Shown: piece after piece, positions 12,719-44,404 of the stretch
How the letters are laid out: the number at the start of each line of letters is the position of its first letter
Numbering within the stretch: the stretch's first letter is position 1
NCBI GenBank assembly: GCA_016744135.1
Contig: JADGEX010000001.1
Coordinates: forward strand, 1,375,029 to 1,439,028
Source: Pseudodesulfovibrio sp.
Lineage (GTDB): Bacteria; Desulfobacterota; Desulfovibrionia; Desulfovibrionales; Desulfovibrionaceae
DNA length: 64,000 nt
Reading direction: 5' to 3'
Notes under the pieces: model-generated
Told to the model about the DNA's origin: nothing
Database searches by the model: none
What the model saw: the letters and a program-made list of their open reading frames with translations, nothing else
Made by a program: the position numbers and the translations under genes

Positions 12719-13600
12719 TTACGCCGCCTTGTGGGTCCATCCCAGAGGGGGTACCCCCTCTGGGATGGGACCGCTTTGATATATCTCCATCGGCTTGCGT
12801 CCGTCAAAGGTCTTGTGAGGACGCCGATTGTTGTAGAAGTTAAACCACCAAGCCAAGGCTCTCCGCAGCTCACTTCCTGTCTCCAGTTCCCGCAAGTAAA
12901 CACATTCGTATTTCAAAGACTTCCAGAGTCGTTCGATCATAACGTTGTCCATCCAACGCTCGCGGCCATCCATTGAGATACGGCTACCAGTATCCCTCAG
13001 AGTCTTTGTGAACTCATAACTGGTAAACTGACTGCCCTGATCCGTATTGAATATCTCAGGGACGCCATAACGGTTAATTGCGTCCTCTAAGGCCGCAACA
13101 CAAAAGTCGGCATCCATCGTATTTGACAAACGCCAAGAAAAGACCGCACGATTATGCCAATCCATAACTGCCACAAGGTACAAGAAGCCTCTTTTCATCG
13201 GGATATACGTTATGTCCGTGCACCAAACCTGATTGGGTTTCGTAATCGCCATATTGCGCAGTAAATAAGGATACGTCTTATGCTGTGGATGTGGCTGGCT
13301 CGTATTTGGCTTTTGGTAAATTGCCATCAAACCCATCTTTCGCATCAGCCGACGTACTCGACCACGACCAACCCAATGCCCTTCATCCCGCAGGATGTTG
13401 CGCATTTGGCGTGAACCGAAGAACGGCAACTCCATGAACAACTTGTCGATGCGTTTCATCAGTTCCAAGTTGTACGCAGACTCGCCAATTGGCTGATAGT
13501 AATATGTTGAGCGTTGCCGCTTGAGAATTCTGCACTGCCGTCGGACGCTGAGTTGTGGATGCTCTTTATCAACGACTTCACGCCTTCGCTCGCAGCTCAA
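12719..13600 (-). CDS. IS3-family transposase OrfB (DDE integrase core)
   Basis: A 293-residue protein with an N-terminal HTH_21-like region and an rve core. The catalytic residues are in WCTDITYIP (first Asp), [11 protein letters not shown] (second Asp) and [13 protein letters not shown] (Glu). The C-terminal [18 protein letters not shown] is standard. The start is TTG at 13600, overlapping the orfA stop as TTGA, in the -1 frame relative to orfA. This could be read by re-initiation, or by frameshifting on the T-rich stretch GATTTTTTG just upstream. Confidence 0.93.
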
Positions 13601-13908
13601 ATTTTGGCGAAGGCTTGTTGCAAAAAATCCTTCTCGATTAGAAATTGGCCAATCTTAGCGTGCAGATCCTTAATATGCGCTTCATCGGTTTGCTGGCTCT
13701 TTTGCTGTTTGCCGGAAAAACCGGCAACGATCTGTTCTTTAGCTTGTCTCTTCCATTGGGATATCTGATTGGTGTGAACGCCATACTTGCTGGCTAACTC
13801 GGAAAGCGTGAGTTCACCGGACAGAGCATCCAGGGCAACACGGGCTTTAAATTCAGCAGTAAATCTTCTTCTCTTCTTGGACATCGAAAAGCCTCCTTCG
13901 GCTATCAT
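13597..13908 (-). CDS. IS3-family transposase OrfA (helix-turn-helix)
   Basis: A 103-residue protein starting KKRRRFTAEFKARVAL, with the LSELASKYGVHTNQISQWKR helix-turn-helix and a C-terminal leucine-zipper-like helix (HIKDLHAKIGQFLIEKDFL). It binds the IS ends and helps form the OrfAB transposase. The alternative start MSKKRRRF lies at 13887 and has an AAGGAGGC ribosome-binding site just upstream (AAGGAGGCTTTTCG then ATG); that start may be the real one. Confidence 0.9.
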   Translation of the reverse strand: MIAEGGFSMSKKRRRFTAEFKARVALDALSGELTLSELASKYGVHTNQISQWKRQAKEQIVAGFSGKQQKSQQTDEAHIKDLHAKIGQFLIEKDFLQQAFAKI

Positions 13909-13952
13909 ATGTCCACCTTAAACTGTGGTCCAGTTTCTTAGACCCACTTCTC

Positions 13953-14098
13953 ACTTTCAATGCGAATTGATGCTTTCGGAACTAGCCAGCAAGTACAAAA
14001 TAAATCTCATCTTCCGGCTCGAACACATTATTTTTGACGACGAAAAACTTGAGAAAAAGGCTCCCCGCTCTTACCGCTGGAGACTCTACATTTCGTAA
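13953..14098 (+). pseudogene. 3' remnant of a gene cut by the insertion sequence
   Basis: Reading the plus strand out of the right IS end, one frame is open for about 48 codons and ends at TAA 14096-14098. It contains ELASKYKINLIF and then HIIFDDEKLEKKAP. An ATG at 13970 could start a 42-residue peptide, but there is no ribosome-binding site close to it. The residue mix looks protein-like, and no matching N-terminal part is seen left of the IS. I read it as the tail of a truncated gene; the family is not recognised. Confidence 0.4.
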
Positions 14099-14132
14099 AT
14101 CCACTACCTCTCCCAAACTTCAACCTAAACAC

Positions 14133-14201
14133 GCTACTCCCCCCGTTACTGTATGTCTAACCTAGACATACAGTAACGTTTTTTGGGGGCATACAGTAAC
14201 G
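14133..14201. promoter_or_regulatory. Palindromic operator-like element, copy 1
   Basis: A perfect 16-bp inverted repeat, CGTTACTGTATGTCTA (14144-14159) and its complement (14163-14178) with a 3-base spacer, is followed by a third half-site CATACAGTAACG at 14190-14201. The 23 bases 14133-14155 recur exactly at 17911-17933. The third half-site ends 10 bases before a TTGACA -35-like box, so binding there could control the ATPase gene. The six T after the palindrome would also allow it to act as a terminator. Confidence 0.65.
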
Positions 14202-14211
14202 CTTTTGGGTA

Positions 14212-14240
14212 TTGACATGTATAGCAAAAATCTCTTAAAG
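14212..14240 (+). promoter_or_regulatory. Candidate sigma-70 promoter of the ATPase gene
   Basis: TTGACA at 14212-14217 is followed after 17 bases by TTAAAG (14235-14240). The ATPase start codon lies 33 bases further on. The -35 box is perfect and the -10 box is weak, which would suit a repressed or activated promoter next to the palindromic element. Confidence 0.4.
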
Positions 14241-14272
14241 ATTTTTGTAGTACCAATACAAATGGAGACATC

Positions 14273-16033
14273 ATGAAAACGACTCAAGCTTTCAAAGAAA
14301 AGGACCTGCGAAAGATTCAAGTCCTGACTGGTGGTTCGTCTGCGAAAACCCAAAGCCACCCCACTCAACCTCGACTCTACGAATTTGACGAAGGCGACAC
14401 ACTCTCCTTTGACGAGGGGACACATGGCGTACTGGTTATTGGAGGAGTAGGCAGAGGCAAGACGGCGTCATTTATGTTGCCCATGGCATCTTCACTGATC
14501 GAGAACGGACTGCCTGGGCTCATCATCGACATCAAAAACAATTTCACGGATCAAATACGCAAGCTAGCCAAAACCGCCGGACGCGAAGATGACATCATTG
14601 AAATCGGCACGCATCCTTCAGCCACTCCCATAAATATTTTGGCAGGGCTCAGTTTGGATGAAATGCACCAACTGTTTGAATCGCTTATCATCAGCGGCAT
14701 GGAGAACAGCCGAAACATAGACTGGCTCCATAAAGGTATCCGGATACTCAGCGATGTCGCTATGTTGCTACATTACGTATCACAAAATAATTTACTATTT
14801 GTACCTAACTTCGTATTACTCGATAAATGCATTAATGATTATGAATTCGCACGCACTGTTTTTAAAATGTACTTGGACAGTGCATACGATGCCAAAGATT
14901 ACTGCCAACGCGCTTTTGTCACGAGGGTCCAAACTTCAGCCTTCCATATCTTCACTCCGCAAGACCAAACGACATCGTCCAAGTATGAAGAACAGCTCGC
15001 CTTCCAGCTTTACACACCACGACTGGTCCTAGGAGCCATCACTTCAGATGATTCTCTGTGCGCCAACCTGTCGGGGATGGATTGCTCGCTCACTCTGGAT
15101 TACCGAGAACTTCTGAAAAACAATAAGATCGTCCTGCTCCGCTTTAAACATACGCAGGGACATGCAGCCAAACTGCTGGCACGACTGCTCAAAGAAAAAT
15201 ACTACGCGGACATCTATCGTACTTTGGACCAGGATTACGAACGCCCTAAGCATTGCTTTTTCATGGCCGACGAATACCAAGACGTCATCAACGTCTCACC
15301 GGACAACACTTTTGATGACTTTTCTTGGTTTTCTAAGGCACGTGAATTTGGCTGCATCAACGTGGTGGCTTCACAGGCACTCTCAAGCCTGTATGCAAAC
15401 AGTTCCCAGCGAGATCAAGTCAATGCTCTGGTTGCGAATTGCTCCACCAAAATCGTCCTGCAAAACGATGATCCGGCAGCCGATGCTTATTTCCGACACT
15501 TCTGCGGCTTGGACAAAACACTCGCTCAACTGGGAGCAGCCGAAGCACTTGTCTCTCGCTTCGATTTGAAGAAACGCGAACAAACAGTCAAAATGTTGCA
15601 TTGCAGCCAGGCCTTTAAACGAATACAGGCGCAATTAGTTCAGCTTAAGGAGGTTACTCCTCCCACAAACGTCTGCAAATCCCACATCAATTTACTACGA
15701 AATATTGATACCGTACTGCAACTTCACAAGCTACCACGGGCAATCAAAATACGACCTGACTATTTAGAACTGACCACAACCTTCAAAGACCTATTCGAGG
15801 ACTTGGACGAAGTAAAAATCAGGTACAGAGAAGGACTCCATAGTGAAGTCATGGATGCATTGAAAACCCTGCACACAAACTACAGCGGTAAGTTTACTGT
15901 CAACGGAATCATTGAAGTCAACTATGGCATCATCTACCTCGACATTAATTCAGATTTCGATGTTGAAGATGAAATAGATGACTTCGTACGCGAACTAGTG
16001 GAGAAAGGACATGAAGAACAGAAAAACAGATAA
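14273..16033 (+). CDS. TraG/VirD4/HerA-like P-loop ATPase without membrane helices
   Basis: A 586-residue protein. Walker A is GGVGRGKT at residues 57-64; the Walker B-like FFMADEYQD is near 328-337; SKAREFGCINVVASQALSSLY after it matches the sensor motif of TraG/VirD4 coupling ATPases. Unlike coupling proteins of conjugation systems it has no N-terminal membrane helices, and no relaxase or type IV secretion genes are near. The last 100 residues are acidic and end near FVRELVEKGHEE. It may be a DNA-pumping ATPase of the island or part of an unknown system. The next gene overlaps its end by 23 bases. Confidence 0.65.
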   Translation: MKTTQAFKEKDLRKIQVLTGGSSAKTQSHPTQPRLYEFDEGDTLSFDEGTHGVLVIGGVGRGKTASFMLPMASSLIENGLPGLIIDIKNNFTDQIRKLAKTAGREDDIIEIGTHPSATPINILAGLSLDEMHQLFESLIISGMENSRNIDWLHKGIRILSDVAMLLHYVSQNNLLFVPNFVLLDKCINDYEFARTVFKMYLDSAYDAKDYCQRAFVTRVQTSAFHIFTPQDQTTSSKYEEQLAFQLYTPRLVLGAITSDDSLCANLSGMDCSLTLDYRELLKNNKIVLLRFKHTQGHAAKLLARLLKEKYYADIYRTLDQDYERPKHCFFMADEYQDVINVSPDNTFDDFSWFSKAREFGCINVVASQALSSLYANSSQRDQVNALVANCSTKIVLQNDDPAADAYFRHFCGLDKTLAQLGAAEALVSRFDLKKREQTVKMLHCSQAFKRIQAQLVQLKEVTPPTNVCKSHINLLRNIDTVLQLHKLPRAIKIRPDYLELTTTFKDLFEDLDEVKIRYREGLHSEVMDALKTLHTNYSGKFTVNGIIEVNYGIIYLDINSDFDVEDEIDDFVRELVEKGHEEQKNR

Positions 16034-16439
16034 CTACTTTCAACGCGAACAGATGTTTAACCGCTATCTGATCAAGGCTGGCCATAATTTATTAACAGAA
16101 AAAGCAAACTACAGAGTTCCTGTAGGTTGGATCAATATCGTCGTAGAACTTTTTAAACGAGTCAGGCAATATCACCCAAACCTCAAAATTGAGAGCATGA
16201 TTATCGTTGAGCCCTCACACAGTTACGGCAGTAAATTCTTTTTTGCATACATAGCGCCCGACAAACAACGGTACGATGACCTCTTGCACAAACCCCGCTC
16301 CCTGCGCTGGATCGAACTACAGGCCCGCCGACAAGTTTATGCAACATGTTCCAGGTGCGGACGACCACTCAAAGGCCCAAGCAAAAAGAACCGTTGTCTG
16401 GTATGTGCTCGTAAAAATGGCTTCAAGAGTTTCAACTAG
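16011..16439 (+). CDS. Hypothetical protein with C-terminal zinc ribbon
   Basis: A 142-residue basic protein. The C-terminus carries CSRCGRPLKG, then CLVCARK, four cysteines spaced as a zinc ribbon (about residues 113-134). The N-terminal 100 residues (NYFQREQMFNRYLIKAGHNLL onward) form a mixed alpha/beta domain I cannot assign. It overlaps the ATPase gene by 23 bases, so the two are probably translated together and may work as partners. Confidence 0.55.
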   Translation: MKNRKTDNYFQREQMFNRYLIKAGHNLLTEKANYRVPVGWINIVVELFKRVRQYHPNLKIESMIIVEPSHSYGSKFFFAYIAPDKQRYDDLLHKPRSLRWIELQARRQVYATCSRCGRPLKGPSKKNRCLVCARKNGFKSFN

Positions 16440-16481
16440 TCAGCCATTGCCGCGCGCAACGTTGATTGTTACATAAGAAAA

Positions 16482-17129
16482 ATGGAAAACGAAAAGGACG
16501 ATCTCGACCTCATAGCAGACTTGGACTTGGGCCTGGATTTCAAAAAACACATCAGCGATAAGCCTCGCTTGATAGGCTATACCCGTTACGGCCCAACCGA
16601 AAAAAATGAAGCCAACTTCGAAGACGACATGGGGTATTTAATATCGGACGTGTCATTCCTAGACCAAGCCGGAAGCAAAACCACAGAGCATCGCCCTCAA
16701 CTCGAAAAATGCATCAATCAACTCAGACAAGGCGATCGTCTTAATATTCCATCAATAGATCGACTAGCTAGAAACACCAAAGAATTGGTTGAGCTAATAA
16801 AACGAATCGCCGACAAAGGGGTCAGCATTGAATTTGAACGCGAAGGCATTAAGCTCGATCCTGTATTGCCAGACTTTGAAGAAAAATTGAATCTGATTGA
16901 AGGCATTTACAAAGCAGAGCAAGCTGTTGCTCTTGAGCGACGCAAAGAAGGACTCATCAAGGCAAAAAAGAAAGGCGTTCGTTTAGGCCGCCCCACGAAA
17001 GTGTCAGATGAAAAGCGTTCACAGATTCGCAAACGGCTCGCTGACGGCGAAAAAGCTCCATCACTCGCCAAGGAATATGGGATTTCAGAAAGCCTCGTTT
17101 ACACAATAGGCCGGGAAGGTGGACGTTAG
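16482..17129 (+). CDS. Serine recombinase (resolvase/invertase) homologue lacking the catalytic serine
   Basis: A 215-residue protein with a resolvase catalytic domain and a C-terminal Hin-type helix-turn-helix (GRPTKVSDEKRSQIRKRL then LAKEYGISESLVYTI). Alignment by eye to gamma-delta resolvase (GYARVST...) gives GYTRYGPT at residues 32-39: the arginine (Arg35) is kept but the nucleophilic Ser10 position is Gly37. The partner arginines (HRPQ Arg71; DRLAR Arg94 and Arg97) are kept. An acidic N-terminal extension of about 28 residues is unusual. It may be a DNA-binding regulator rather than a recombinase. Confidence 0.75.
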   Translation: MENEKDDLDLIADLDLGLDFKKHISDKPRLIGYTRYGPTEKNEANFEDDMGYLISDVSFLDQAGSKTTEHRPQLEKCINQLRQGDRLNIPSIDRLARNTKELVELIKRIADKGVSIEFEREGIKLDPVLPDFEEKLNLIEGIYKAEQAVALERRKEGLIKAKKKGVRLGRPTKVSDEKRSQIRKRLADGEKAPSLAKEYGISESLVYTIGREGGR

Positions 17130-17174
17130 TTCTTCATCTCATGGCACACACCACAACGGCAACCACCTTTAAAA

Positions 17175-17474
17175 TCAATCCCGAAACCAACCGATAGTCG
17201 TACGGTATTTCCCAATCCACAACATATGAAGGTACATTAGTACAACAAAGACTATCATCCCAACAATGACGTAGTCGGTCATCAGCCACGCACTGATGGA
17301 GTAGAGTATTGTCATTGACAGGATAATAATGGTTGAGAAACTTCCAGCTGTCACTTGCTGCCCATGCACAGCCTGACAATTACCACAGACAGATGCTCCC
17401 TTGGACACGAACTCTCCACAAAAAGGACATGCACCTTCTTCTGTCGTCGCCTGGTAAGAAAAGCTATTATCCAT
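17175..17474 (-). CDS. Small membrane protein with N-terminal zinc ribbon
   Basis: A 99-residue protein. CPFCGEFVSKGASVCGNC (residues 16-33) is a CxxC...CxxC zinc ribbon. Two hydrophobic helices follow, about residues 46-66 and 69-87. It is a zinc-ribbon/TM2-like topology with no known function. It is oppositely oriented between the recombinase homologue and the XRE gene. Confidence 0.6.
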   Translation of the reverse strand: MDNSFSYQATTEEGACPFCGEFVSKGASVCGNCQAVHGQQVTAGSFSTIIILSMTILYSISAWLMTDYVIVGMIVFVVLMYLHMLWIGKYRTTIGWFRD

Positions 17475-17573
17475 CGCATTCTCCGATAGTTATACTAATA
17501 TTATCTCTCATTGTGATACTTATAGTCTGTAGACTTATAGAAGTCAAACTTCCATGCGAATATTTGGAGGAGT

Positions 17574-17819
17574 ATGCGCATGTCTGGAAATTACACGAAG
17601 CAGGAAAAAACATTCTTGAAGAAGCTTGGAAAGGCCATCAAAGAACGACGGACAAAGAAAGGCTTGTCGCAAGAAAAACTCGCAGAATTGACTGGACTAC
17701 ACAGAACTTATGTAGGCTCGGTTGAACGCGGAGAACGCAATATCAGCGCGCTAAACACCAAAGTACTGGCTGACGCTTTAGGATGTCAGGCTAGCGATCT
17801 ATTTCGAAGTGCCGAATAA
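17574..17819 (+). CDS. XRE-family transcriptional regulator
   Basis: An 81-residue protein that is almost entirely a Cro/C1 helix-turn-helix: KKLGKAIKERRTKKGLSQEK then LAELTGLHRTYVGSVERGERN. GGAGG lies just upstream, and starts at 17574 or 17580 are both possible. The second copy of the palindromic operator-like element begins 92 bases after its stop and the first lies before the ATPase gene, so it is a candidate repressor of both. Confidence 0.8.
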   Translation: MRMSGNYTKQEKTFLKKLGKAIKERRTKKGLSQEKLAELTGLHRTYVGSVERGERNISALNTKVLADALGCQASDLFRSAE

Positions 17820-17910
17820 AAAGGTACGCAGCAAATTGCCGAATCAGCCCCTGACCAAATGAAACCGTTTGACCCCCAAATGTATAAAACGGTCAAAATG
17901 CCCTTCTCCG

Positions 17911-17981
17911 GCTACTCCCCCCGTTACTGTATGCCAAAATCGACATACAGTAACGCTTTTTGCCACCCCAAAGTAACGCTT
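17911..17981. promoter_or_regulatory. Palindromic operator-like element, copy 2
   Basis: CGTTACTGTATG (17922-17933) pairs with CATACAGTAACG (17944-17955), and a third partial half-site AAGTAACGCTT follows at 17971-17981, the same layout as copy 1. The 23 bases 17911-17933 are identical to 14133-14155. The rest of the 18000-18224 gap before hipB shows nothing else I can name. Confidence 0.6.
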
Positions 17982-18248
17982 TGATGTATAAAGACCTACT
18001 GCCTGCCTAATCGTTTTTGCCCCCCCCTCCTCCATCCTTTCTTAAGACAGCAATCGCCCTACATTATGTAGAGTTGCACAAAATTAATAATTACAAACAG
18101 ATACGCCTTACCCATTTTCTTACATGAACAGCCAAGAGTTGGATCTGACACTATTCACTTACATATCATTCCGCATTGACTCATGCCTTATTTGTGACTA
18201 TTATACTTGTTGTAATTAATTTTTATGGCAATTAAAATAGGCATAATA

Positions 18249-18557
18249 ATGAAAAAGAAACTCCCAATATCTGTCCGTAGCGGATTAAAAAAACTCGGTG
18301 ACTCCTTGAAGAAAGCCAGACTCCGGAGACGATTAAAAATGGTAACCATCGCTAATCGAGCTGGGATCAGTCGTGAGACTTTGGCCAAGATTCAAAAAGG
18401 TGATTCAGGTGTGAGCATAGGAAATTATGCAGCCGTCATTTTCGCTCTTGGCCTGGGTGTTGAGTGGATGGGCTTGGCTGACATCTCGGAAGATAAGGTA
18501 GGACAGGCCTTAGATGAAGAGCGCATTCCTCGTCGCGCCAGAGATATTAAGGCATAG
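18249..18557 (+). CDS. hipB: HipB-like antitoxin/XRE regulator
   Basis: From ATG 18249 (AGG 8 bases upstream) this is a 102-residue protein; a start at 18225 in the same frame is possible but has no ribosome-binding site. The helix-turn-helix is KMVTIANRAGISRETLAKIQ. The C-terminal tail (DEERIPRRARDIKA) is basic. It ends 9 bases before the HipA gene. Family knowledge: HipB binds HipA, neutralises it and represses the operon. Confidence 0.82.
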   Translation: MKKKLPISVRSGLKKLGDSLKKARLRRRLKMVTIANRAGISRETLAKIQKGDSGVSIGNYAAVIFALGLGVEWMGLADISEDKVGQALDEERIPRRARDIKA

Positions 18558-18566
18558 GAATTCACC

Positions 18567-19850
18567 ATGGCCAAAAAAATATATGTTTATGTTGATCTCC
18601 AAGAAGGGACTCATCCCGTAGGGATATTGTGGGTACATGCCAACAATGCAGGGGAAAGTGCGTCTTTTGAATATGCACCGGAGTGGAGGAACTCTCCGTC
18701 TAAATTTTCTCTTGAGCCAGCACTGGAAGTTGGTGAAGGGGCTTTTCACACAGATGCAGGCAAATCCTTGTTCGGCTCTATTGGAGACTCTGCGCCTGAC
18801 AGGTGGGGGCGAGTGCTCATGAAACGCCGTGAAGCTCATGCTGCAAAAGCTGAGAAGCGTAATCCTCGACTTCTTCATGACTCTAACTACTTGCTAATGG
18901 TCAACGACTTCTCCAGACAAGGAGCTTTGCGCTTTGCCGAAACGAAAAACGGCCCTTTCATGGCTGCAGACACAAACGACAGCATTCCCCCAGTCGTTGA
19001 CCTTAGACGACTTCTAAACGCGTCTGAAAGAATTCAGGCTCGCCAGGAACTGGATCAGGACATCAAAGACCTTGTTGATCCGGGTGCCTCCTTGGGCGGG
19101 GCACGACCAAAGGCCTCCGTCATTGATACAAATGGCGACCTGCTTATTGCGAAACTTCCTAGCCGAAATGATGATTGGGATGTTGAGCTATGGGAGTATC
19201 TCTCTTTCAAAATGGCAGAGCGTGCGGGCATTCCAACGCCTGCCACTCGACTGGAAAAGATTAACGATAAAAATGTGCTTCTTCTCAAGCGCTTTGACCG
19301 CAGAGAAAAAGGAATTCGAATTCCTTTCCTGTCTGCCATGAGTATGCTGAGTTATTCTGATGGAACCCACGGTAGTTATATTGAATTAGCCGAGATTCTG
19401 GCCCGATATGGATCTGAAACGACATTGGACCAAAAGGACTTATGGCGTAGGATGGTGTTCAACATCATGATCTCGAATGTTGATGATCATCTTCGAAACC
19501 ACGGTTTTCTCTATGACGGTTCCGCAGGGTGGCGACTTTCGCCACTCTACGATCTCGAACCAACGCCGACACACAACAAGCCGAGAGTGCTGCACACTTA
19601 TATAGACATGTACAATGGTACAGCTTCTTTAGATCTTGCTTACAGTGTGGCAGACGAATTTGACCTCAATTTGAACGAAGCACGCAAAATAGCTAAAGAG
19701 GTGGCAGAAGCAACAAGAAATTGGGCCTACGAAGCTGGTCGACTTGGAGCAGACAAAAATGACATTGAAACCATGAGTTCTGCATTTAACCATGACGACC
19801 TAAAGTTGGGGCTCAAGGCCAAGGTTGTTATCGGAAACTCCCGAGCCTGA
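18567..19850 (+). CDS. hipA: HipA-family serine/threonine kinase toxin
   Basis: A 427-residue protein, the usual HipA length. SLGGARPK (near residue 174) is the HipA glycine-rich loop; LLLKRFDR follows; the catalytic loop NVDDHLRNH is near 304-312, and the metal-binding LSPLYDLEPTP near 324. All catalytic motifs are intact. The E. coli enzyme phosphorylates GltX; the target here is unknown. The upstream HipB makes this a type II toxin-antitoxin pair that could stabilise the island. Confidence 0.9.
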   Translation: MAKKIYVYVDLQEGTHPVGILWVHANNAGESASFEYAPEWRNSPSKFSLEPALEVGEGAFHTDAGKSLFGSIGDSAPDRWGRVLMKRREAHAAKAEKRNPRLLHDSNYLLMVNDFSRQGALRFAETKNGPFMAADTNDSIPPVVDLRRLLNASERIQARQELDQDIKDLVDPGASLGGARPKASVIDTNGDLLIAKLPSRNDDWDVELWEYLSFKMAERAGIPTPATRLEKINDKNVLLLKRFDRREKGIRIPFLSAMSMLSYSDGTHGSYIELAEILARYGSETTLDQKDLWRRMVFNIMISNVDDHLRNHGFLYDGSAGWRLSPLYDLEPTPTHNKPRVLHTYIDMYNGTASLDLAYSVADEFDLNLNEARKIAKEVAEATRNWAYEAGRLGADKNDIETMSSAFNHDDLKLGLKAKVVIGNSRA

Positions 19851-19970
19851 CGCAGAAACAGGGGGGGGTACACTCACCCCCAAGAATTTGAATTCAATGG
19901 GGATGGCCAACGCTTTACAAAAATCATATAAGTGACTAATTTTAAAATGCAAAATAAAGGATTGGGTAAT

Positions 19971-20174
19971 TTATTGCCAAATCGAATCCGCCTCTATTTT
20001 CTTCTGAAGCCAATCCTCCACAATTTGCATAGGCCAACCGAGCCTTCTACCCAAATGGATAGGGCGAGGGATTGCATCAAAGTTACGCCGTTGCCAATGA
20101 CTACGGATGGCTGCGCTAGTTGTTCCTAGCAATTCCGCAAGCTCGTAGATATTCAAAACTTTTTGATTACTCAT
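19971..20174 (-). CDS. AlpA/excisionase-type helix-turn-helix protein
   Basis: From ATG 20174, with GAGGAG 7 bases upstream, this is a 67-residue protein; the longer open frame to 20213 is less likely. VLNIYELAELLGTTSAAIRS is the helix-turn-helix and HLGRRLGWPMQIVEDWL the following recognition wing, as in MerR-like excisionases and AlpA. It is divergent from the 314-residue protein at 20287 and may control it. Confidence 0.65.
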   Translation of the reverse strand: MSNQKVLNIYELAELLGTTSAAIRSHWQRRNFDAIPRPIHLGRRLGWPMQIVEDWLQKKIEADSIWQ

Positions 20175-20286
20175 GATTTTTTCTCCTCTTCGAAATTCAT
20201 CATGAGTTATCAATAAACTGACAATACAAAATGCGACTATCTACGATTTTCTTTTCACACAGCTGATTTTTTTTGGAAGCAAACGT

Positions 20287-21231
20287 ATGTACCAAAGACA
20301 ACAAGAACTAATGCTCATAGAGAGATACAAAGGACGTACTCCGGCTGACGTGACAAACTTGATCAGAAAAGACATCTCACAACTCTTTCCTAAAAGCGTC
20401 CTAGCCAAATCATTGATTATCCTTCACAAATGCAACTCGTGGTCAAAATTGGGCAAAAAAATAAAATGGCTTTCCAGCGCTACCGAATACGGAGAACAAG
20501 AAGATTTTATTAACGACCTATACTCCGCATTCCTAATTATAAAAACCAACGGGGATAAAAGATTTGCCCTAAAAAAAAGAACAAACAAATTTCTTGGGCA
20601 CTTCACTACTTGTCCCCATTGTTGGCGCTTTGTTTTCAAGCGTTACAACAAAATCAAAAAAGCCCCTTATTGCTGCTTCCACGAATCCGGTTGTGCCGAA
20701 TACCAAAGTCACCGACGGGCCCTTTTACGCCTCGCAAAAATCGGAAAAACATCGAGGCTACAGGAGCTTCGGAGCCTCTACCTAAAACATACTCAAAATG
20801 TACTTCACATTTGGCCCCCTAACTACATCAATTTAAAATCCAAAGGAATCCTTGCGCCTGAGGAATACGAGCCTGTCGAGCATGACCTCACAGAGATATG
20901 GCCCCATCTTCCTCTTACCAAAGAATTTATTTGCAAAACAGGAGGCGACATTCGCAATATCGAATCCGTAATATCGGCGCTTGATCCTGTCGATAGAATT
21001 GACCCTAATGATATGTGGGATAAAAATGATACCGAAGGTGCTGCATTTGTCCGCGAAAAACGACTCCTGCTCCACCAAATCATTATTCGTGACGCTAGTT
21101 TATACAAATGGGAATTTAGCCAAGCTGAAGCCTGGCTCAAACTCCAGCAGGAAGTACGGTCATCAAAAGGAGGCCCAAAACCAAACGCAGGAGGGCGACG
21201 TATAGGGGCTGGCAGACCTAAAAAACAATGA
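20287..21231 (+). CDS. Hypothetical island protein with a Cys/His cluster and basic tail
   Basis: A 314-residue protein I do not recognise. Residues around 112-140 contain CPHCWRFVFKRY and CCFHESGC, a possible metal site of CxxC...C(x)nC type. The C-terminus GGRRIGAGRPKKQ is an AT-hook-like basic tail. The rest is helical with many Trp and Lys. It could be a DNA-binding replication or mobility factor of the island; this is only inference from the tail and context. Confidence 0.5.
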   Translation: MYQRQQELMLIERYKGRTPADVTNLIRKDISQLFPKSVLAKSLIILHKCNSWSKLGKKIKWLSSATEYGEQEDFINDLYSAFLIIKTNGDKRFALKKRTNKFLGHFTTCPHCWRFVFKRYNKIKKAPYCCFHESGCAEYQSHRRALLRLAKIGKTSRLQELRSLYLKHTQNVLHIWPPNYINLKSKGILAPEEYEPVEHDLTEIWPHLPLTKEFICKTGGDIRNIESVISALDPVDRIDPNDMWDKNDTEGAAFVREKRLLLHQIIIRDASLYKWEFSQAEAWLKLQQEVRSSKGGPKPNAGGRRIGAGRPKKQ

Positions 21232-21371
21232 CCCTTTTCCTCTACATATTTGACGACTGGCCCCCTTCAACTTACTAACAAAAAAACTAATTCCCTGTTT
21301 AAAGCCAGCTATTTATTCAAAAATCAAGGCGCACAGAACACAGAATTATTGTATCTACACAACCAACCGTA

Positions 21372-21520
21372 TTCATCACGATGCATCACGATCAATCACA
21401 ATGGTTGTAGTCGCTGAGCAGCAACAGACTCCAACAAATGCTGTATGTCTTCGACCACAAATCGGCCCTAGGGGACCTCATTCACCCTGAACTTCCCTGA
21501 TTCATCACAATTCATCAAAA
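21372..21520. repeat. Two clusters of 10-bp-phased TTCATCACRA repeats
   Basis: Three 10-base units abut at 21372-21401 (TTCATCACGA, TGCATCACGA, TCAATCACAA) and two more at 21501-21520 (TTCATCACAA, TTCATCAAAA). A period of one helical turn suggests cooperative protein binding on one DNA face. The gap 21232-21908 holds no intact gene other than these and a short remnant. Confidence 0.6.
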
Positions 21521-21572
21521 AGAATCAACCCGTTGAATTTAAAGAATAACTTGAAAAAACTTACCAGCCTGA

Positions 21573-21668
21573 TATTATCCCTCCACCTTCCAGAATGAAC
21601 AAGCGATACTGGCAGAAGCAGAAGCCTCAGAACTCAATGTGTCCTGGCGTACCATTGAGTATAATTAA
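21573..21668 (+). pseudogene. Short 3' remnant resembling a primase/replication-protein tail
   Basis: A frame open for 31 codons and ending at TAA 21666-21668 reads EQAILAEAEASELNVSWRTI. Stretches of the form AEAEA-x-G-I-S-W-R-T are common at the C-terminus of phage and plasmid primase or RepA proteins. There is no start codon with a ribosome-binding site. This is a guess from pattern alone. Confidence 0.2.
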
Positions 21669-21908
21669 TGACCTTCTGCCCCCTATGGGCGGAACGCCAC
21701 CTGACCGCATTACATAGGCAGGATGACCGCCACATCCTGCTGGTTGGTTCTTCATACGGAACCTCGGTTATGAGATGAACAGGAAAGCGAAACCGAACCG
21801 CGAACCAAAGAGTCATCCGGCCCAGAAACCGCCCTCTCACCAGGGTCTATATTCCTAACCAGCATTCGAACTGGGCGCTGTTCGGCAACCTTCATCATGG
21901 AGGCTGCT

Positions 21909-22133
21909 ATGCAGTATCAAAATAACCAAGCACTCTTACCTAACCTCTTTACAATTCAAGACGCCGCAACCTTTCTGCGCGTCCACCGTTCCACCATTTC
22001 TCGTATCATTTCCACTGGCGATTTACCCTGCATCAGAGTAAGATCACGTAAGCTGATCCGAGAGCAGGATTTGCTAGCGTTCATTGACAGCCAAATCGGA
22101 ATTGAAACGGGCGGAAGCTCGCAGGAGTACTAG
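21909..22133 (+). CDS. Excisionase-family DNA-binding protein
   Basis: From ATG 21909, with GGAGG 6 bases upstream, this is a 74-residue protein (an in-frame ATG at 21897 is upstream of that site). LFTIQDAATFLRVHRSTISR is an HTH_17 helix-turn-helix, with RVRSRKLIREQDLLAFID as the wing. It ends 3 bases before the integrase gene, the standard Xis-Int arrangement, and probably controls excision. Confidence 0.82.
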   Translation: MQYQNNQALLPNLFTIQDAATFLRVHRSTISRIISTGDLPCIRVRSRKLIREQDLLAFIDSQIGIETGGSSQEY

Positions 22134-22136
22134 CCC

Positions 22137-23261
22137 ATGGCTACAGTAACCATTGCGAAATGCCCCAGAAAAAAGACCAAAGATGTATACCGTGTAGACT
22201 TCTACTGCCCGGAAACACAAATGAAAAAATATTACGGCACGTTCAAGAGAAAAAGCGATGCGAAAGCGGCAAAAGCCAAACTTGAAGTTACAATAGATGG
22301 CGGAGAATTAATTGAGATGCCAAGGGCCAACAGGTCCTTACGAAACAAGACCGTCAATCACTTCTGTGATCTCAAAGAAAAAGAGTGGAAAAGACGCAAA
22401 CAAGAAGGGAGTCTCAGCCCTGTCACAGCTTCAGGATATATAGGCCGTCTGAAACGAATCCGAAAAACGTTTGGAAGAAAGCTGATCGGGACGATTACCG
22501 AAGAACTCCTTCTCGACTTCCGAGCCAAAGAAGCTCATCGCAACTCCCCAGCCTCGGCGAATCGGTATCTGTTCGTTGTTCAACAAGTAATAAAGCTGGC
22601 ATCGAAAGAGAAGGCGATCACGACTGATCCGTCTGCTTCAATCCCGAAGTTAAGCGAAAAACAACATGAACGGAAAGTATTCCTCACCCCTAACGAGGTT
22701 GAGATATTACTCGAACAAGCTAGAAAACAAAAAACACGACACTACATGGTGCTGGCGATTCTGCTTGCCGTAGAGCATGGATGTGCTCGCCAAGAGATAC
22801 TTGACCTCAAATGGTCCCAAATTGACCTGGACTTTCAAGACACAGGAGCAATCAACTTCTACCGCACCAAAAATAAGAACGACAGGCTTCACTCAATTAT
22901 GCCGAGAACGAGAGAAGCCTTGCTTGAGCGAAAGGCCCACCTTGAGAAGATGAGAAAACAGCGTGGAATCGAAGTAAAAGACGAGCATATTGTCGGGAAA
23001 CTCAATGGCTGTAGGTCCACCAACTTCAACAAGGCTTGGCGGACCATCCGTGACGCATGCGGCTTCAACAAGAAGCTCAACTTCCACGACCACCGCCACA
23101 CTTATTGTACCAACATCGTGCTGGCGGGCGGGTCAACAAAACACGCAGCATCCATGATCGGCCATAATGATCCGCGTATGACCGAGCGTTATACCAACCT
23201 CGAGAACTTGCTCCACAACCCGGTACAGGACAAGTTGGCCGCACACTATCAAAATACATAA
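22137..23261 (+). CDS. int: Tyrosine recombinase (site-specific integrase)
   Basis: A 374-residue phage-type integrase. An N-terminal arm/SAM-like domain (DVYRVDFYCPETQMKKYYGT) is followed by the catalytic core with EHGCARQEILDL (Arg I, near 215), HDHRHTYCTN (His-x-x-Arg, near 314) and IGHNDPRMTERY (Tyr, near 352). All catalytic residues are present. It lies 100 bases from the 3' end of tRNA-Ala, so that tRNA end is the likely attachment site of the island. Confidence 0.93.
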   Translation: MATVTIAKCPRKKTKDVYRVDFYCPETQMKKYYGTFKRKSDAKAAKAKLEVTIDGGELIEMPRANRSLRNKTVNHFCDLKEKEWKRRKQEGSLSPVTASGYIGRLKRIRKTFGRKLIGTITEELLLDFRAKEAHRNSPASANRYLFVVQQVIKLASKEKAITTDPSASIPKLSEKQHERKVFLTPNEVEILLEQARKQKTRHYMVLAILLAVEHGCARQEILDLKWSQIDLDFQDTGAINFYRTKNKNDRLHSIMPRTREALLERKAHLEKMRKQRGIEVKDEHIVGKLNGCRSTNFNKAWRTIRDACGFNKKLNFHDHRHTYCTNIVLAGGSTKHAASMIGHNDPRMTERYTNLENLLHNPVQDKLAAHYQNT

Positions 23262-36862: not shown

Positions 36863-37002
36863 TCAAATCCTGATGGTCCAAACATGAACTTCAACTCATC
36901 TGCACTTAATTATACGCCGCCCAAACCTCATTGGTCACAAAACTTGCCCGTCTCTCCGTCCTAAGCTAAATACATACACTCACCATGAAGGAGAACACAA
37001 TT

Positions 37003-37524
37003 ATGAACATGCATGAGAATCCGGTCCTTGATGCCATATTTTCTCGCCGGTCCATTCGTAAATACACGGAAGAACCTGTTTCACGGCAAGACATCACGAC
37101 TATCCTCGAAGCCGGTCAGTGGGCTCCCAGCGGACTGAATAATCAGCCTTGGCGTTTCTTGGTCATCACCCGCGGTGATCCACGTCATTCCAAACTGGCC
37201 GAATGCACCAAATATGCGCATATAGTCCGCGCTTCTGCAGCATGTATCTGCGTCGTGCTCGAAAAAGAAGCCATGTATAGTGAAATGAAAGATCATCAAG
37301 GGGTCGGAGCATGCATTCAAAACATGATGTTGGCCGCTCATGCGCTCGGTATAGGCTCGGTCTGGCTCGGTCAAATCGTCAACGATCAGGCAACCTCTCT
37401 CGGTGCTCTTGAAATCAATCCCGAAACATACGAACTTCAGGCGGTCATCGCCCTTGGGCATCCCGATCAAAAGGGAAGCTCTAAGCGCAAAGACTTGTCT
37501 GAACTCATGCTGGAGGCATTTTAA
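37003..37524 (+). CDS. Nitroreductase-family FMN protein
   Basis: A 173-residue protein from ATG 37003, which has GGAG 8 bases upstream (an ATG at 36985 lies before that site). RRSIRKYTEEPV near residue 14 and APSGLNNQPWRFLVI near 40 are the FMN-binding marks; GIGSVWLGQ is near 117. It lies at the start of an overlapping five-gene operon. The substrate is not defined. Confidence 0.9.
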   Translation: MNMHENPVLDAIFSRRSIRKYTEEPVSRQDITTILEAGQWAPSGLNNQPWRFLVITRGDPRHSKLAECTKYAHIVRASAACICVVLEKEAMYSEMKDHQGVGACIQNMMLAAHALGIGSVWLGQIVNDQATSLGALEINPETYELQAVIALGHPDQKGSSKRKDLSELMLEAF

Positions 37525-38144
37525 TGACCATAAAGACATTCAATCTTGGCCCACTTCAGACCAATTGCTACGTCCTATCAGGCGAAAAGGAAGCTGTGGT
37601 CATCGATCCAGGCGGCAACCCCGCCGAGGTCGTGGAATATCTCAAGGCCAACAACCTCACCGTGACCCACATCCTAAACACCCATCTGCATTTTGACCAC
37701 ACCGCAGGCAACAGGGAACTTTCAGAAATTACGGGCGCCCCGATACTGTGCAGTGAAAAAGATGCCGACCTATTGGACACCTGGCTTGGGCGAGGCGGAG
37801 AAAACGGATTGCCACTTCTGGACTCTTACGAGTGGCAAAACATCGAGCCGGGAGAAACTCAATTTGCCGGCTTCGACTGCACCATCTTCCACACACCAGG
37901 TCACTCCACAGGCAGCCTGACCTTCTATTTCCCCGAAGCAGAAGCCGCCTTTGTAGGCGATTTGATTTTCTACCGCTCCATCGGACGCACTGACTTCCCC
38001 GGCGGAGATCTGGATGTGCTCAAACGGTCCGTGACCGAGCATATATTCACCCTGCCGCCTGCCACAAAATTGCTGTCCGGCCACGGCCCGGAAACCACTG
38101 TTTCCGACGAACAAAACCATAACTCGTTCTTTTCGGAGTTTTAA
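37524..38144 (+). CDS. MBL-fold hydrolase (glyoxalase II-like)
   Basis: A 206-residue metallo-beta-lactamase-fold protein. THLHFDHTAGN (HxHxDH, residues 53-63) and FHTPGHSTGS, then FVGDLIFYRSIGRTD, give the metal-binding set, with HGPETTV near the end. It probably hydrolyses thioesters, as glyoxalase II relatives do. It shares one base with the nitroreductase and is directly followed by the selenoprotein gene. Confidence 0.92.
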   Translation: MTIKTFNLGPLQTNCYVLSGEKEAVVIDPGGNPAEVVEYLKANNLTVTHILNTHLHFDHTAGNRELSEITGAPILCSEKDADLLDTWLGRGGENGLPLLDSYEWQNIEPGETQFAGFDCTIFHTPGHSTGSLTFYFPEAEAAFVGDLIFYRSIGRTDFPGGDLDVLKRSVTEHIFTLPPATKLLSGHGPETTVSDEQNHNSFFSEF

Positions 38145-38390
38145 ATGAGTGAACCGATTCTCATAGATATCCGCGACAAATGTTGAGGCGTGGGCATGGA
38201 GATAGGTTGGTATCTCCGTTTCGCCAAGGCCGATGCCATCGAAGCCAAGGTTTCCCTCAAGGGAGCGGCTCAAGTGCGTCATGACGAAAACATCTTTCCG
38301 GACTGGAGCTTTGCATTTGAGGAGCATGAAGACCATGTGGTCGCACGATTAACCCGCAAAAACCCCCTGTTCGACAAAGAGGACACATGA
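38145..38390 (+). CDS. Small selenoprotein with a Cys-Sec motif (in-frame UGA)
   Basis: The frame starts at ATG 38145, with GGAG 6 bases upstream, directly after the previous stop. Codon 13 is TGT and codon 14 is TGA (38184-38186). The frame then continues without a stop to TGA 38388-38390, which overlaps the next start. If UGA is read as selenocysteine, the product is 81 residues with C13-U14. A GGAGATA/TATCTCC hairpin follows 11 bases after the UGA. The fold may be TusA/SirA-like (redox Cys after a first strand, then FPDWSFAFEEHEDHVVARL), but that is a weak visual match. Without Sec only a GTG-started 66-residue piece would remain. Confidence 0.8.
38184..38217 (+). other. Bacterial SECIS-like element
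   Basis: After the UGA at 38184-38186, GGAGATA (38198-38204) pairs with TATCTCC (38211-38217) around the loop GGTTGG. Bacterial SECIS hairpins lie just downstream of the UGA and carry a G and U near the start of the apical loop, for SelB binding; this hairpin fits both. Confidence 0.7.
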
Positions 38391-38992
38391 CCAAAAGCGT
38401 GATCTATGCATGCAGCCACCGACGGGGCGGCAACTCGGACCGGACGGCCACCCTGCTCGCTCAGGGCGTGGCCGAAGCCGGAGGAGAAGCAAACGTTCTC
38501 TACATTCGCAACCACTCTGTCATGGCCTGCCTTGCCTGTGACTATTGTGCAGAAGCAAAATTCAAACAGGGAATGGCGCGCTGTGTCCTCGGACAGCAGG
38601 ATGACGCATATGAACTATTCGAACCAATGCTCACGGCCCGGACCGTATTCTTCACCTCACCTATCTATTTTTACCATCTCCCGTCCCTGTTCAAAACGTG
38701 GATCGATCGAAGTCAACAATTCTGGGCAGCCAAACAACTTGGAGAACCATGGGTTGCAGACCTTCCAAAACGTACGGCTCATGTGGTGCTTCATGCTGGT
38801 CGCCCTGCCGGTGACAAACTTTTTGAAGGAGCACAAGTCACTCTCAAATACTTCTTAAACAACTTCAATTTCACATTGGCTGAACCGCTGATATTCAGAG
38901 GTATCGACGAGCAAAATGATATGGAGGCGCACCCGGATTTCGAACAGCAAATTATCGAACTCGGTCGCACGGCGTGGGCTTCTGCCCAATGA
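38387..38992 (+). CDS. Flavodoxin-family FMN reductase
   Basis: A 201-residue protein. CSHRRGGNSDRTATL near the start is the FMN-phosphate loop, and SPIYFYHLPSLFKTWIDR near 87-104 matches NADPH-dependent FMN reductases/iron-sulfur flavoproteins. CLACDYCAEAKF adds three cysteines near 44-50. It is fused to the selenoprotein by a 4-base overlap, so the two may act together in thiol/selenol redox chemistry. It overlaps comF by 4 bases. Confidence 0.87.
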   Translation: MTKSVIYACSHRRGGNSDRTATLLAQGVAEAGGEANVLYIRNHSVMACLACDYCAEAKFKQGMARCVLGQQDDAYELFEPMLTARTVFFTSPIYFYHLPSLFKTWIDRSQQFWAAKQLGEPWVADLPKRTAHVVLHAGRPAGDKLFEGAQVTLKYFLNNFNFTLAEPLIFRGIDEQNDMEAHPDFEQQIIELGRTAWASAQ

Positions 38993-39726
38993 CACCTATG
39001 CCCGAATGGTTTCGCTGGTTCGCTCGCAAAACCCAATTGACAAGCAAACGCTGCCCGGTCTGCGGAGTGGTCATGCACGGTACAGATCTGATGTGTACAT
39101 CTTGTAAAGAAGCAATTCCGATTCGTGTTGGCGGCTACTGCCCCACATGCGGTGCCATGTCCGGGCGTCCAGATGCACCGCCAAGCCAATGCCCTGAATG
39201 TCGACGCAACCCACCGCCATGGGACACCCTGTACTTTCATGGCCGATATGCCGACTCGCTGCGAGAGCTCATTATTTCGTATAAATTTTCTAACAACTTC
39301 GGAAGAAGCCATGTCCTCTCTGCGCTCGCTTGCACCACATTCAGAGCCAGAAAAATACGAATGCCAGACATCATTATTCCAGTGCCTCTACACAGCCGCA
39401 GACTGCTCTGGCGCGGCTTCAATCAAAGCTTGGAATTAGCAAAAGCATTGGGCAAAACATTTGAAAGACCGATTTTAAAGGAGGGGCTTGTTCGCACTCG
39501 CAACACTCCACCCCAGACGCAATTCGGACACAAAGAACGACAAAAGAATATCAAGAATGCATTCGCAGCAGATAAAAAAGGTATCGCAGGACAAACCGTA
39601 CTGCTCGTAGATGATGTGTATACTACAGGCGCAACTTTGCGTGAATGTGCCCAAACAGTGAAGCGAGCCGGAGCCTTAGGCGTTGACATATTGGTTCTGG
39701 CCCGCACACAGCAGGAACCATGCTGA
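38989..39726 (+). CDS. ComF-family phosphoribosyltransferase-like protein
   Basis: A 245-residue protein from ATG 38989. The N-terminal zinc cysteines are CPVCG, CTSCK, CPTCG and CPECRRN (residues about 20-73). The C-terminus has the PRPP-binding loop VLLVDDVYTTGATLRECA and the segment RNTPPQTQFGHKERQKNIKN. In other bacteria ComF helps take up DNA; here the role is uncertain. Confidence 0.92.
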   Translation: MTPMPEWFRWFARKTQLTSKRCPVCGVVMHGTDLMCTSCKEAIPIRVGGYCPTCGAMSGRPDAPPSQCPECRRNPPPWDTLYFHGRYADSLRELIISYKFSNNFGRSHVLSALACTTFRARKIRMPDIIIPVPLHSRRLLWRGFNQSLELAKALGKTFERPILKEGLVRTRNTPPQTQFGHKERQKNIKNAFAADKKGIAGQTVLLVDDVYTTGATLRECAQTVKRAGALGVDILVLARTQQEPC

Positions 39727-43021: not shown

Positions 43022-43366
43022 ATGTCAAAAAAAGTTGGTGGCGCCAAGCCACAAAGATACGTTCAGCCCTCCCTGCTCATGGCTTTGAGCAGCGGCCAGT
43101 CATACGGATACCAATTAATTCACTCTATTGGAGAATATGGTTTTCTACGCGGAGACGCCCCTCCGGGCATGATATACCGCCATTTGCGGCAAATGGATGA
43201 AGAAGGACTTGTCACTTCAGAATGGGACGCAGAAGGAGATGGCCCTGCCAAGCGGGTCTACGCCATCACGCCTGAAGGATTGGAAATCCTGGACGCATGG
43301 ATTCATCACATGGAAAAACAGAGAGATCGACTCGACAGCTTTATTGCGCGGTACCGGCAAAAGTAG
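43022..43366 (+). CDS. PadR-family transcriptional regulator
   Basis: A 114-residue protein with the winged helix of PadR: SLLMALSSGQSYGYQLIHSI near residue 17, GMIYRHLRQMDEEGLVTSEW in the recognition helix, and KRVYAITPEGLEILDAWI. The C-terminal helix is short. Its ligand is unknown. The last 26 bases overlap the oppositely directed TiaS-like gene. Confidence 0.85.
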   Translation: MSKKVGGAKPQRYVQPSLLMALSSGQSYGYQLIHSIGEYGFLRGDAPPGMIYRHLRQMDEEGLVTSEWDAEGDGPAKRVYAITPEGLEILDAWIHHMEKQRDRLDSFIARYRQK

Positions 43367-44111
43367 CAGGTATTTCCTTTTTCATGCCCGGCCCATGCTT
43401 TTTCTTACGTTTGCCATGAGCAGTTTCCCAAACACCGTGCTGCACGTTGCGTAATTGAAGCATGGGTTGTCCTGCCCAAAGCGAAGGACGAATCCAGTTG
43501 GCATCGATCACTACGTCTTCAGGTTGCGGGACCAATGGGTCTCGGTCGACCGACACGACACTGATTCCGGCGTCTGTCAGGTCGTGAACACGAAGGCGTG
43601 CAGGCAGATCGCGAAGCACTCCGTATTCGATGAATCGTCCACACCAGCCGTATTTGGTCAGCCCTACGGCAGCCAATGCGCCAATGATGCCATCGTTCGT
43701 GCCGCCCAATCCGTAGAGTTCAATATCTCCAGCCGTCCGCATGGCGTCCTTCTGGGTCACTTTCCGACTCGTGACCAGTTGGCTGTATGCAACAACGTCC
43801 GAAGTGACATCTGATTCTTGGACGAGGCACAGCCCCGGATCACTACCGGGTGCACAATGGATTTCAAGGTGTTCTATCGCCAAACGACGCAAAGTATCGA
43901 GCAAACCAGCATCAGCCATATCAACGATAGCGCAGGCTGAACTGTTATTAGATGTAAACGGGATATTCTCGAGACGTGGAAGTTGATGCCGAACGATGCC
44001 TCGCAAAGAGAAACCATCGGGAAGCTTATAGCCAAATTCCCGCACCAGACGCCCTGTTCCCATAGGCGCATCGTGATCATCCGTATCGTCGAAACCAAGA
44101 TATATCCGCAC
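43341..44111 (-). CDS. TiaS-like protein (tRNA-Ile agmatinyltransferase N-terminal type)
   Basis: From GTG 44111, with GGAGG 6 bases upstream, this is a 256-residue protein; an ATG at 44150 in the same frame lies before that site. IYLGFDDTDDHDAPMGTGRL is the FDDTD motif of archaeal TiaS, and NIPFTSNNSSACAIVDM and GGTNDGIIGALAAVGL follow it. Archaeal TiaS is longer and has OB-fold and zinc domains; those are absent here. Bacteria use TilS for this tRNA change, so the real function is probably different. Confidence 0.65.
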   Translation of the reverse strand: MRIYLGFDDTDDHDAPMGTGRLVREFGYKLPDGFSLRGIVRHQLPRLENIPFTSNNSSACAIVDMADAGLLDTLRRLAIEHLEIHCAPGSDPGLCLVQESDVTSDVVAYSQLVTSRKVTQKDAMRTAGDIELYGLGGTNDGIIGALAAVGLTKYGWCGRFIEYGVLRDLPARLRVHDLTDAGISVVSVDRDPLVPQPEDVVIDANWIRPSLWAGQPMLQLRNVQHGVWETAHGKRKKKHGPGMKKEIPATFAGTAQ

Positions 44112-44404
44112 AATCAGCCTCCATTTATGCTGTTGCGGGCACAATTCCACAACTCATAAGGGGAGGCAAGCGGTGTTTTCCTGCGTCGGAAATGACACTG
44201 ATAAAAGATGTATCAGGCGAGAACTAAACGGTACAGAGCGCGTTCGTAACATCGCGTCACTCTTGATGCAGCACCATGTGCCACACCCAGTGTGCGCAAT
44301 CTGCAATAGACATGCAGTGGATTGAAGGCATGTTGTAGCCGGGAACGTAATCCTGTCATGCTTTTCTTATCGACATATGCACAAAAATGATTAGGGGGAG
44401 GCTG

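Follow-up and report, generated by a model that had tools for sequence, protein, structure and literature searches.

Positions 38145 to 38390 of the window, by which is meant the whole 64,000-nucleotide stretch of Pseudodesulfovibrio sp. DNA that was analysed, almost certainly hold a selenoprotein gene, in which the UGA at codon 14 would, judging from sequence comparison, be decoded as selenocysteine (Sec). On the same grounds the encoded protein is taken to represent a real selenoprotein family that occurs in many sulfate-reducing bacteria. This family of small selenoproteins is missing from the selenoprotein catalogues checked, and ordinary gene finders truncate the gene at the stop codon. 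The combined reading, a selenoprotein that also has a TusA-like fold, is considered highly probable.

A selenoprotein gene with a conserved in-frame TGA

The initial annotation had described an 82-codon frame with an ATG start, a GGAG site, a TGT followed by an in-frame TGA at codon 14, and four-base coupling to the next gene, and inspection of the sequence located each of these at the position claimed. The start ATG (38145-38147) directly abuts the TAA of the upstream gene (38142-38144), the terminal TGA shares an ATGA overlap with the ATG of the next gene (38387), and the motif around Sec14 in the window protein is DIRDKCUGVGMEIGWYLRF. The features of the region are as follows.

36985-37524, + strand: member of the nitroreductase family, found upstream of the selenoprotein gene in 39 of 85 loci
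37524-38144, + strand: glyoxalase II-like hydrolase of the metallo-beta-lactamase fold, found upstream of the selenoprotein gene in 68 of 85 loci, at a distance of about 1.1 kb in several of them
38135-38138, + strand: GGAG ribosome-binding site, 6 nt 5′ of the ATG (from sequence)
38145-38390, + strand: candidate selenoprotein gene, 81 residues, Sec14, terminal stop TGA at 38388-38390 (from sequence and homologues)
38181-38183, + strand: TGT, encoding Cys13, the Cys of the adjacent Cys-Sec pair (from sequence and homologues)
38184-38186, + strand: in-frame TGA, putatively read as Sec14 (from same-codon conservation)
38198-38217, + strand: bacterial-type SECIS hairpin, GGAGATA-GGTTGG-TATCTCC (from sequence, covariation and fold energy)
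38387-38992, + strand: FMN_red/Flavodoxin_2-type flavoprotein (by Pfam) overlapping the selenoprotein gene, downstream in 71 of 85 loci
38974-39726, + strand: ComF-like protein, downstream in 69 of 85 loci

The ORF list produced with translation table 11 contains, in the selenoprotein frame, only a GTG-started 66-residue ORF (38190-38390), confirming that standard gene calling would yield just this fragment.

A search of 150 genomes of the window's order (the order sample) with the Cys-substituted protein identified a homologue in 85 genomes, and all 85 loci were extracted. The TGA is present at the same codon in 84 of the 85 homologues, the exception being L098 of genome G070, a CPC orthologue that keeps two cysteines in place of the Cys-TGA pair. 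Since pairwise protein identity among the 85 homologues has a median of only 34% (minimum 17%), the retention of TGA at codon 14 is more than would be expected by chance. The codon before the TGA is TGC or TGT in all 84 TGA-bearing homologues of the order sample, and the motifs at the Sec site across homologues are CUGxG, CUHVG and similar. Four columns of the alignment of 85 proteins are invariant: D8, C13, position 14, where the alignment tool writes Sec as Cys and another Cys stands in L098, and L24.

A later profile search, run across the class, gave matches in six further genomes of the order sample, five with the TGA (G012, G027, G032, G039 and G129) and one, G084, with a Cys paralogue only. 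In all, this search gave matches in 168 of 348 genomes of the class, with the TGA form in 165, a count for which the codon was read in extracted loci and pattern matches and elsewhere taken from the stop count. All of the class matches listed have the TGA, and 18 lower-scoring genomes were settled through the order-sample search and the extracted loci. The three genomes without the TGA form are G070 with its CPC orthologue, and G636 and G084, in which only the Cys paralogue was found. The phylum sample gave matches in 6 of 395 genomes, all six within the window's family; the carrier sequences are mutually related, so these counts are not of independent events. A plasmid search for the gene found none. 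As a separate observation, two of the 165 TGA copies appear decayed (G684 and G695). Among the extracted loci, decayed-looking copies are L113, with an early TAA, and L137/L142, with strong divergence in L137, which suggests loss of the selenoprotein gene in some lineages.

Some genomes of the class also carry a divergent paralogue family with the motif xCGLxP (19 loci; L139-L141 and L143-L158). Profile comparison of the paralogues with the Sec family gave a probability of 98.9% (E 1.2e-17) over 78 columns, with Cys placed on Sec. The two families thus share whole-length homology and a chalcogen residue at the same position. The paralogues differ in lacking both the TGA at that codon and the GWYL stretch, and in having an invariant Pro at the fourth residue past the Cys; in 19 of 19 paralogue loci the four neighbour genes are all missing. 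Six of the 19 paralogues were scanned against Pfam, with nothing above chance (one match at E 0.13), and against NCBIfam, where no model matched. In L151 the paralogue directly follows an ORF that we take to be mnmE-like. The initial annotation had named Cys or Sec at position 14 of homologues as support for its proposal, and both were found, the TGA in 84 of the 85 homologues and Cys in the paralogues.

These data bear on two readings in which the codon is not Sec. In the first, the TGA is a true stop that separates a 13-residue leader peptide from a GTG-started 66-residue protein, and such a 66-residue ORF does exist under the standard code. However, the sequences on the two sides of the TGA are conserved together as a single protein, and the Cys homologues read straight across the site. 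The start at 38190 is not conserved, GTG being found at codon 2 after the TGA in only 41 of 84 homologues, and 9 of 84 lack any start codon within 29 codons past the TGA. The chance that this reading is correct is regarded as negligible. Frameshifting was rejected, as homology runs on in the same frame on either side of the TGA.

The second reading has Trp or some other residue inserted at the TGA, through a change of code or near-cognate readthrough, for which nothing speaks except the open frame. A pattern allowing any TGN at the site, TGG included, was scanned over genome contigs and gave 57 matches, of which 57 have TGA and none TGG; the pattern demands a Cys codon before the site and recovers 75 of the 85 known loci, so divergent copies are missed. 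Matches whose group is named below phylum or class level are, we assume, from the Desulfovibrionales, and several are given only as Proteobacteria or Deltaproteobacteria. Decoding as Trp is further opposed by the paralogues with Cys at the site, by the use of TGA as terminal stop in 56 of the 85 genes of the family, and by the loss of the TGA in G070, a genome without detected sel genes, making it extremely improbable.

Selenocysteine machinery and the hairpin after the TGA

The presence of selA, selB and selC in the genome had been proposed as a further check, and all are present in the genome of the window (selB 398.8 bits, tRNA-Sec 78.7 bits, selA 612.5 bits). In the order sample, selB is above the cut-off in 134 of 150 genomes, including 81 of the 84 TGA carriers; the remaining three (G064, G079 and G104) have selA, and tRNA-Sec is above the cut-off in G064 and G104 and below it in G079, which is 77% complete. 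As 53 of the 65 genomes with no match in the initial order search also have selB, the selenoprotein gene is not required by organisms that use Sec. In G070, the genome with the CPC orthologue, neither selB nor selA was detected and the best tRNA-Sec match scored 46.8 bits against a cut-off of 47, although, with the genome only 85% complete, the absence of sel genes is no more than likely. The congeneric genomes G009 and G073 keep both the TGA and the machinery (tRNA-Sec 79.3 bits). G070 can be viewed as an experiment of nature: the Sec machinery is probably missing, and CPC stands where the other homologues have the Cys-TGA pair.

A 7-bp hairpin follows the TGA, with GGAGATA at 38198-38204, the loop GGTTGG at 38205-38210 and TATCTCC at 38211-38217. 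It begins 11 nt past the TGA, its loop begins 18 nt past the TGA, and it satisfies the bacterial SECIS criteria as quoted in PMC13188914. The 42 nt after the TGA have a fold energy of -17.9 kcal/mol in the window, stronger than all 300 synonymous recodings (z -3.35); the same recoding test over 84 genes gave a mean z of -1.83, with 44 of 84 below p 0.05. A scan of window positions 37900-38600 against Rfam gave zero matches.

In the 84 aligned stretches, 86.8% of the cells of the named helix are paired, compared with 82.1% after shuffling, and cells changed on both sides of the helix number 32, compared with 3.0; neither value was reached in any of 500 shuffles. Further pair types in the helix were not above shuffles (6 vs 5.1; reached in 67 of 500). 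Helices slid along the alignment have 0 to 17 double-change cells, while their covariation scores at slides of -3, -2 and +2 (0.148, 0.178 and 0.190) are close to or higher than the 0.161 observed. The synonymous codons of the stem provide a clearer test: wherever the stem holds an isoleucine codon (ATA/ATC), the partner Tyr is encoded by TAT (23 of 23), and of the 30 valine codons with a partner Tyr, 20 go with TAC and 10 with TAT. RNAalifold, run on all 84 stretches, returned no consensus structure. GCC replaces RTN in the stem of 16 of the 84 sequences, 14 of which belong to a single genus, and these 16 seem to use a different, shifted hairpin. The GCC-type loci include L079, L082, L085-L089, L091 and L093, and in several of these the predicted hairpin is shifted and has a loop of 4 nt, which might represent a second type of SECIS.

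The hairpin had been described from the window alone, and its stem of 7 bp, its loop and its SECIS-like distance were all verified, together with conservation through compensatory changes. The central claim of the initial annotation, an 81-residue selenoprotein with a Cys-Sec pair, is thus supported by the conserved TGA, the Cys paralogues, the hairpin and the sel genes.

Predicted fold and neighbouring genes

AlphaFold2, run on the 85-row alignment, predicted an E-H-E-H-E-E fold (pLDDT 91.5) with helix 1 starting at residue 16. In this model the Cys13-Sec14 pair lies just before helix 1, at the place where TusA and SirA hold their sulfur-binding Cys. Neither the Sec-family model nor the paralogue model had a Foldseek match reaching E 0.001. 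For the Sec-family model the top ranks were taken by SpoVS, Alba and an rRNA methyltransferase, followed by TusA from the IscS complex (3lvj, rank 7), the SirA-like 3hz7 (rank 11) and TsuA-TsuB (8k1r, rank 13; 8j4c, rank 17, query TM 0.67); as SpoVS and Alba rank higher, the resemblance to TusA is not specific. For the paralogue model (pLDDT 75.0), the SirA-like 3hz7 ranked first (E 0.037) and TusA fifth.

Sequence comparisons were less favourable to a relationship with TusA. The window protein had no match in Pfam at E 0.1, PF01206 included, a PDB sequence search gave three weak, irrelevant matches only, and the CPxP active-site motif of TusA/SirA is absent from the family. When profiles were compared with the TusA and YedF encoded in the window's genome, the Sec family gave no match (1.1%) and the paralogues a weak one (48.9%). 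Of the initial suggestion that the protein is TusA/SirA-like, the fold part is supported by the predicted structure, whereas the Pfam, PDB sequence and profile comparisons provide no direct sequence match. A TusA-like fold is therefore very likely as a model-based prediction, and membership of the TusA family is not well supported by sequence. In common with TusA/SirA (PF01206, including YedF), the predicted protein has the E-H-E-H-E-E order in about 80 residues and, in the model, a reactive chalcogen placed between a D-L-R strand and the start of helix 1; it differs in having Sec for Cys, a Cys preceding it, no CPxP and no Pfam match.

Neighbouring genes were counted in the 85 loci within the fetched flanks. 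In the flavoprotein whose gene overlaps that of the selenoprotein, four cysteines (positions 54, 57, 60 and 72 of the aligned fragment) are invariant in 71 of 71 sequences. Even its best relatives among solved structures match weakly (E 6e-6). Iron-sulfur flavoproteins (Isf) are FMN proteins of flavodoxin-like type with a compact motif of cysteines, and the partner resembles them in this, as judged from its Pfam assignment (FMN_red/Flavodoxin_2) and the four cysteines; the overlapping FMN-binding protein is probably an Fe-S flavoprotein. The best solved relatives of the metallo-beta-lactamase-fold protein are labelled as a lactamase_B-domain protein and a hydroxyacylglutathione hydrolase. The ORF at 38974-39726 is presumed to be ComF-like from its sequence. 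In 14 of the 85 loci, among them L065 with little upstream sequence, none of the four neighbours was found nearby, and no common alternative neighbour was established; in L074 and L077 an ORF that is presumably DsbA/VKOR-like lies 8 bp downstream of the selenoprotein gene, in the place of the flavoprotein. Elsewhere in the window, positions 12719-23261 may be a mobile region, with IS3-type transposase-like, TraD-like, HipA-like and integrase-like ORFs, and an ORF at 43341-44150 on the - strand appears to us to resemble TiaS, the tRNA-Ile2 agmatinylcytidine synthetase of archaea, whose presence in a bacterial genome would be out of the ordinary.

Possible function and relation to known selenoproteins

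In the proposed mechanism, selenocysteine would be inserted at UGA 14 via the SECIS hairpin, in a genome with selA, selB and tRNA-Sec, and the resulting Cys13-Sec14 pair would cycle between a reduced state and a selenenylsulfide (or Sec-bound sulfane sulfur). The FMN-binding protein encoded by the overlapping gene, in which four cysteines are invariant, would relay electrons from NAD(P)H to the Cys-Sec pair. In sulfate reducers this pair would thereby reduce or carry sulfane sulfur or thiol adducts, in a TusA-like but selenium-dependent manner. The electron donor, the selenenylsulfide cycle and the sulfane-sulfur substrate are what we infer from the fold, from gene order and from the presence of a Cys-Sec pair, and the selenoprotein and the FMN-reductase-like protein may on this basis work jointly, as the initial annotation had suggested. 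The chances that this redox or carrier mechanism with a flavoprotein partner is correct are put at slightly below even.

An alternative makes Cys13 incidental, with sulfane sulfur (or selenium) carried on Sec14 only, in the manner of the TusA Cys. The Cys aligned to Sec is invariant in all 19 paralogues while the residue before it varies, the copy L134, from one genome, has Gly at position 13 and yet keeps Sec, and the predicted fold and site resemble those of TusA. This carrier role for one residue is nevertheless opposed by the conservation of Cys13 in all 84 TGA-bearing homologues of the order sample and by the two cysteines kept in the orthologue without TGA, and is considered unlikely. 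From the sequences, CPC in G070 would favour a two-chalcogen centre, and Gly13 in L134 and the paralogues would favour a single essential residue.

The mammalian thioredoxin reductase C-terminus is GCUG. A vicinal Cys-Sec-Gly redox motif is common to that enzyme and the present family, with no homology claimed, and in the mammalian enzyme the motif is the C-terminal tail of a large flavoenzyme.

Among known prokaryotic selenoproteins, an adjacent Cys-Sec pair occurs in several families (CopZ-like form 2, SaoL, SaoC, HgcA, MbdU and KCU-star) in the table of a 2026 review (PMC13188914), which by that table have other domains; their NF models were not among the NCBIfam matches of the 85 members. 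Several of these CU-motif families are linked to metals by name in the same table (MerB-like SaoL, HgcA, MbdU), which raises the possibility that the present protein binds a metal or organometal, with the Cys-Sec pair as a soft ligand. Metal binding is judged rather improbable, as the predicted fold and the Cys paralogues point to TusA-like chemistry and no metal-resistance-like gene is found among the four conserved neighbours.

The window protein matched no model in NCBIfam release 20 at E 1, and the 85 members together matched four unrelated models, one member each, at chance level (E 0.032-0.096). The review's table, which covers 119 prokaryotic selenoprotein families, contains no TusA-like or matching family (PMC13188914). 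A 2006 list for Desulfovibrio vulgaris, a strain that may lack the gene, comprises SelD, FdhA (3), DsrE-like, GlpC, HesB-like and FrhA. In the open-access literature no description of the family was found, and an earlier account in subscription papers or supplements is possible. For Desulfomicrobium orale, the deep-Sep study gives six known and zero new selenoprotein genes, and its authors state that their own method may miss selenoproteins without Cys homologues (PMC12013277).

A fuller form of the preferred reading, considered possible but somewhat less likely than not, is that a TusA fold and its sulfur transfer have been rebuilt on an obligatory vicinal Cys-Sec pair, giving a reductase or carrier of sulfane sulfur that depends on selenium and has a flavoprotein of its own to supply it, with the SECIS element fixing part of the active-site helix (E-[VI]-G-W-[YH]-L-R) and the family being practically Sec-only. 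Such a family would be invisible to methods that need Cys homologues. A widespread selenoprotein family would be added to a well-studied bacterial group, showing how a family that is almost exclusively Sec-containing can be overlooked, and would make selenium chemistry at the site of a sulfur carrier open to experiment.
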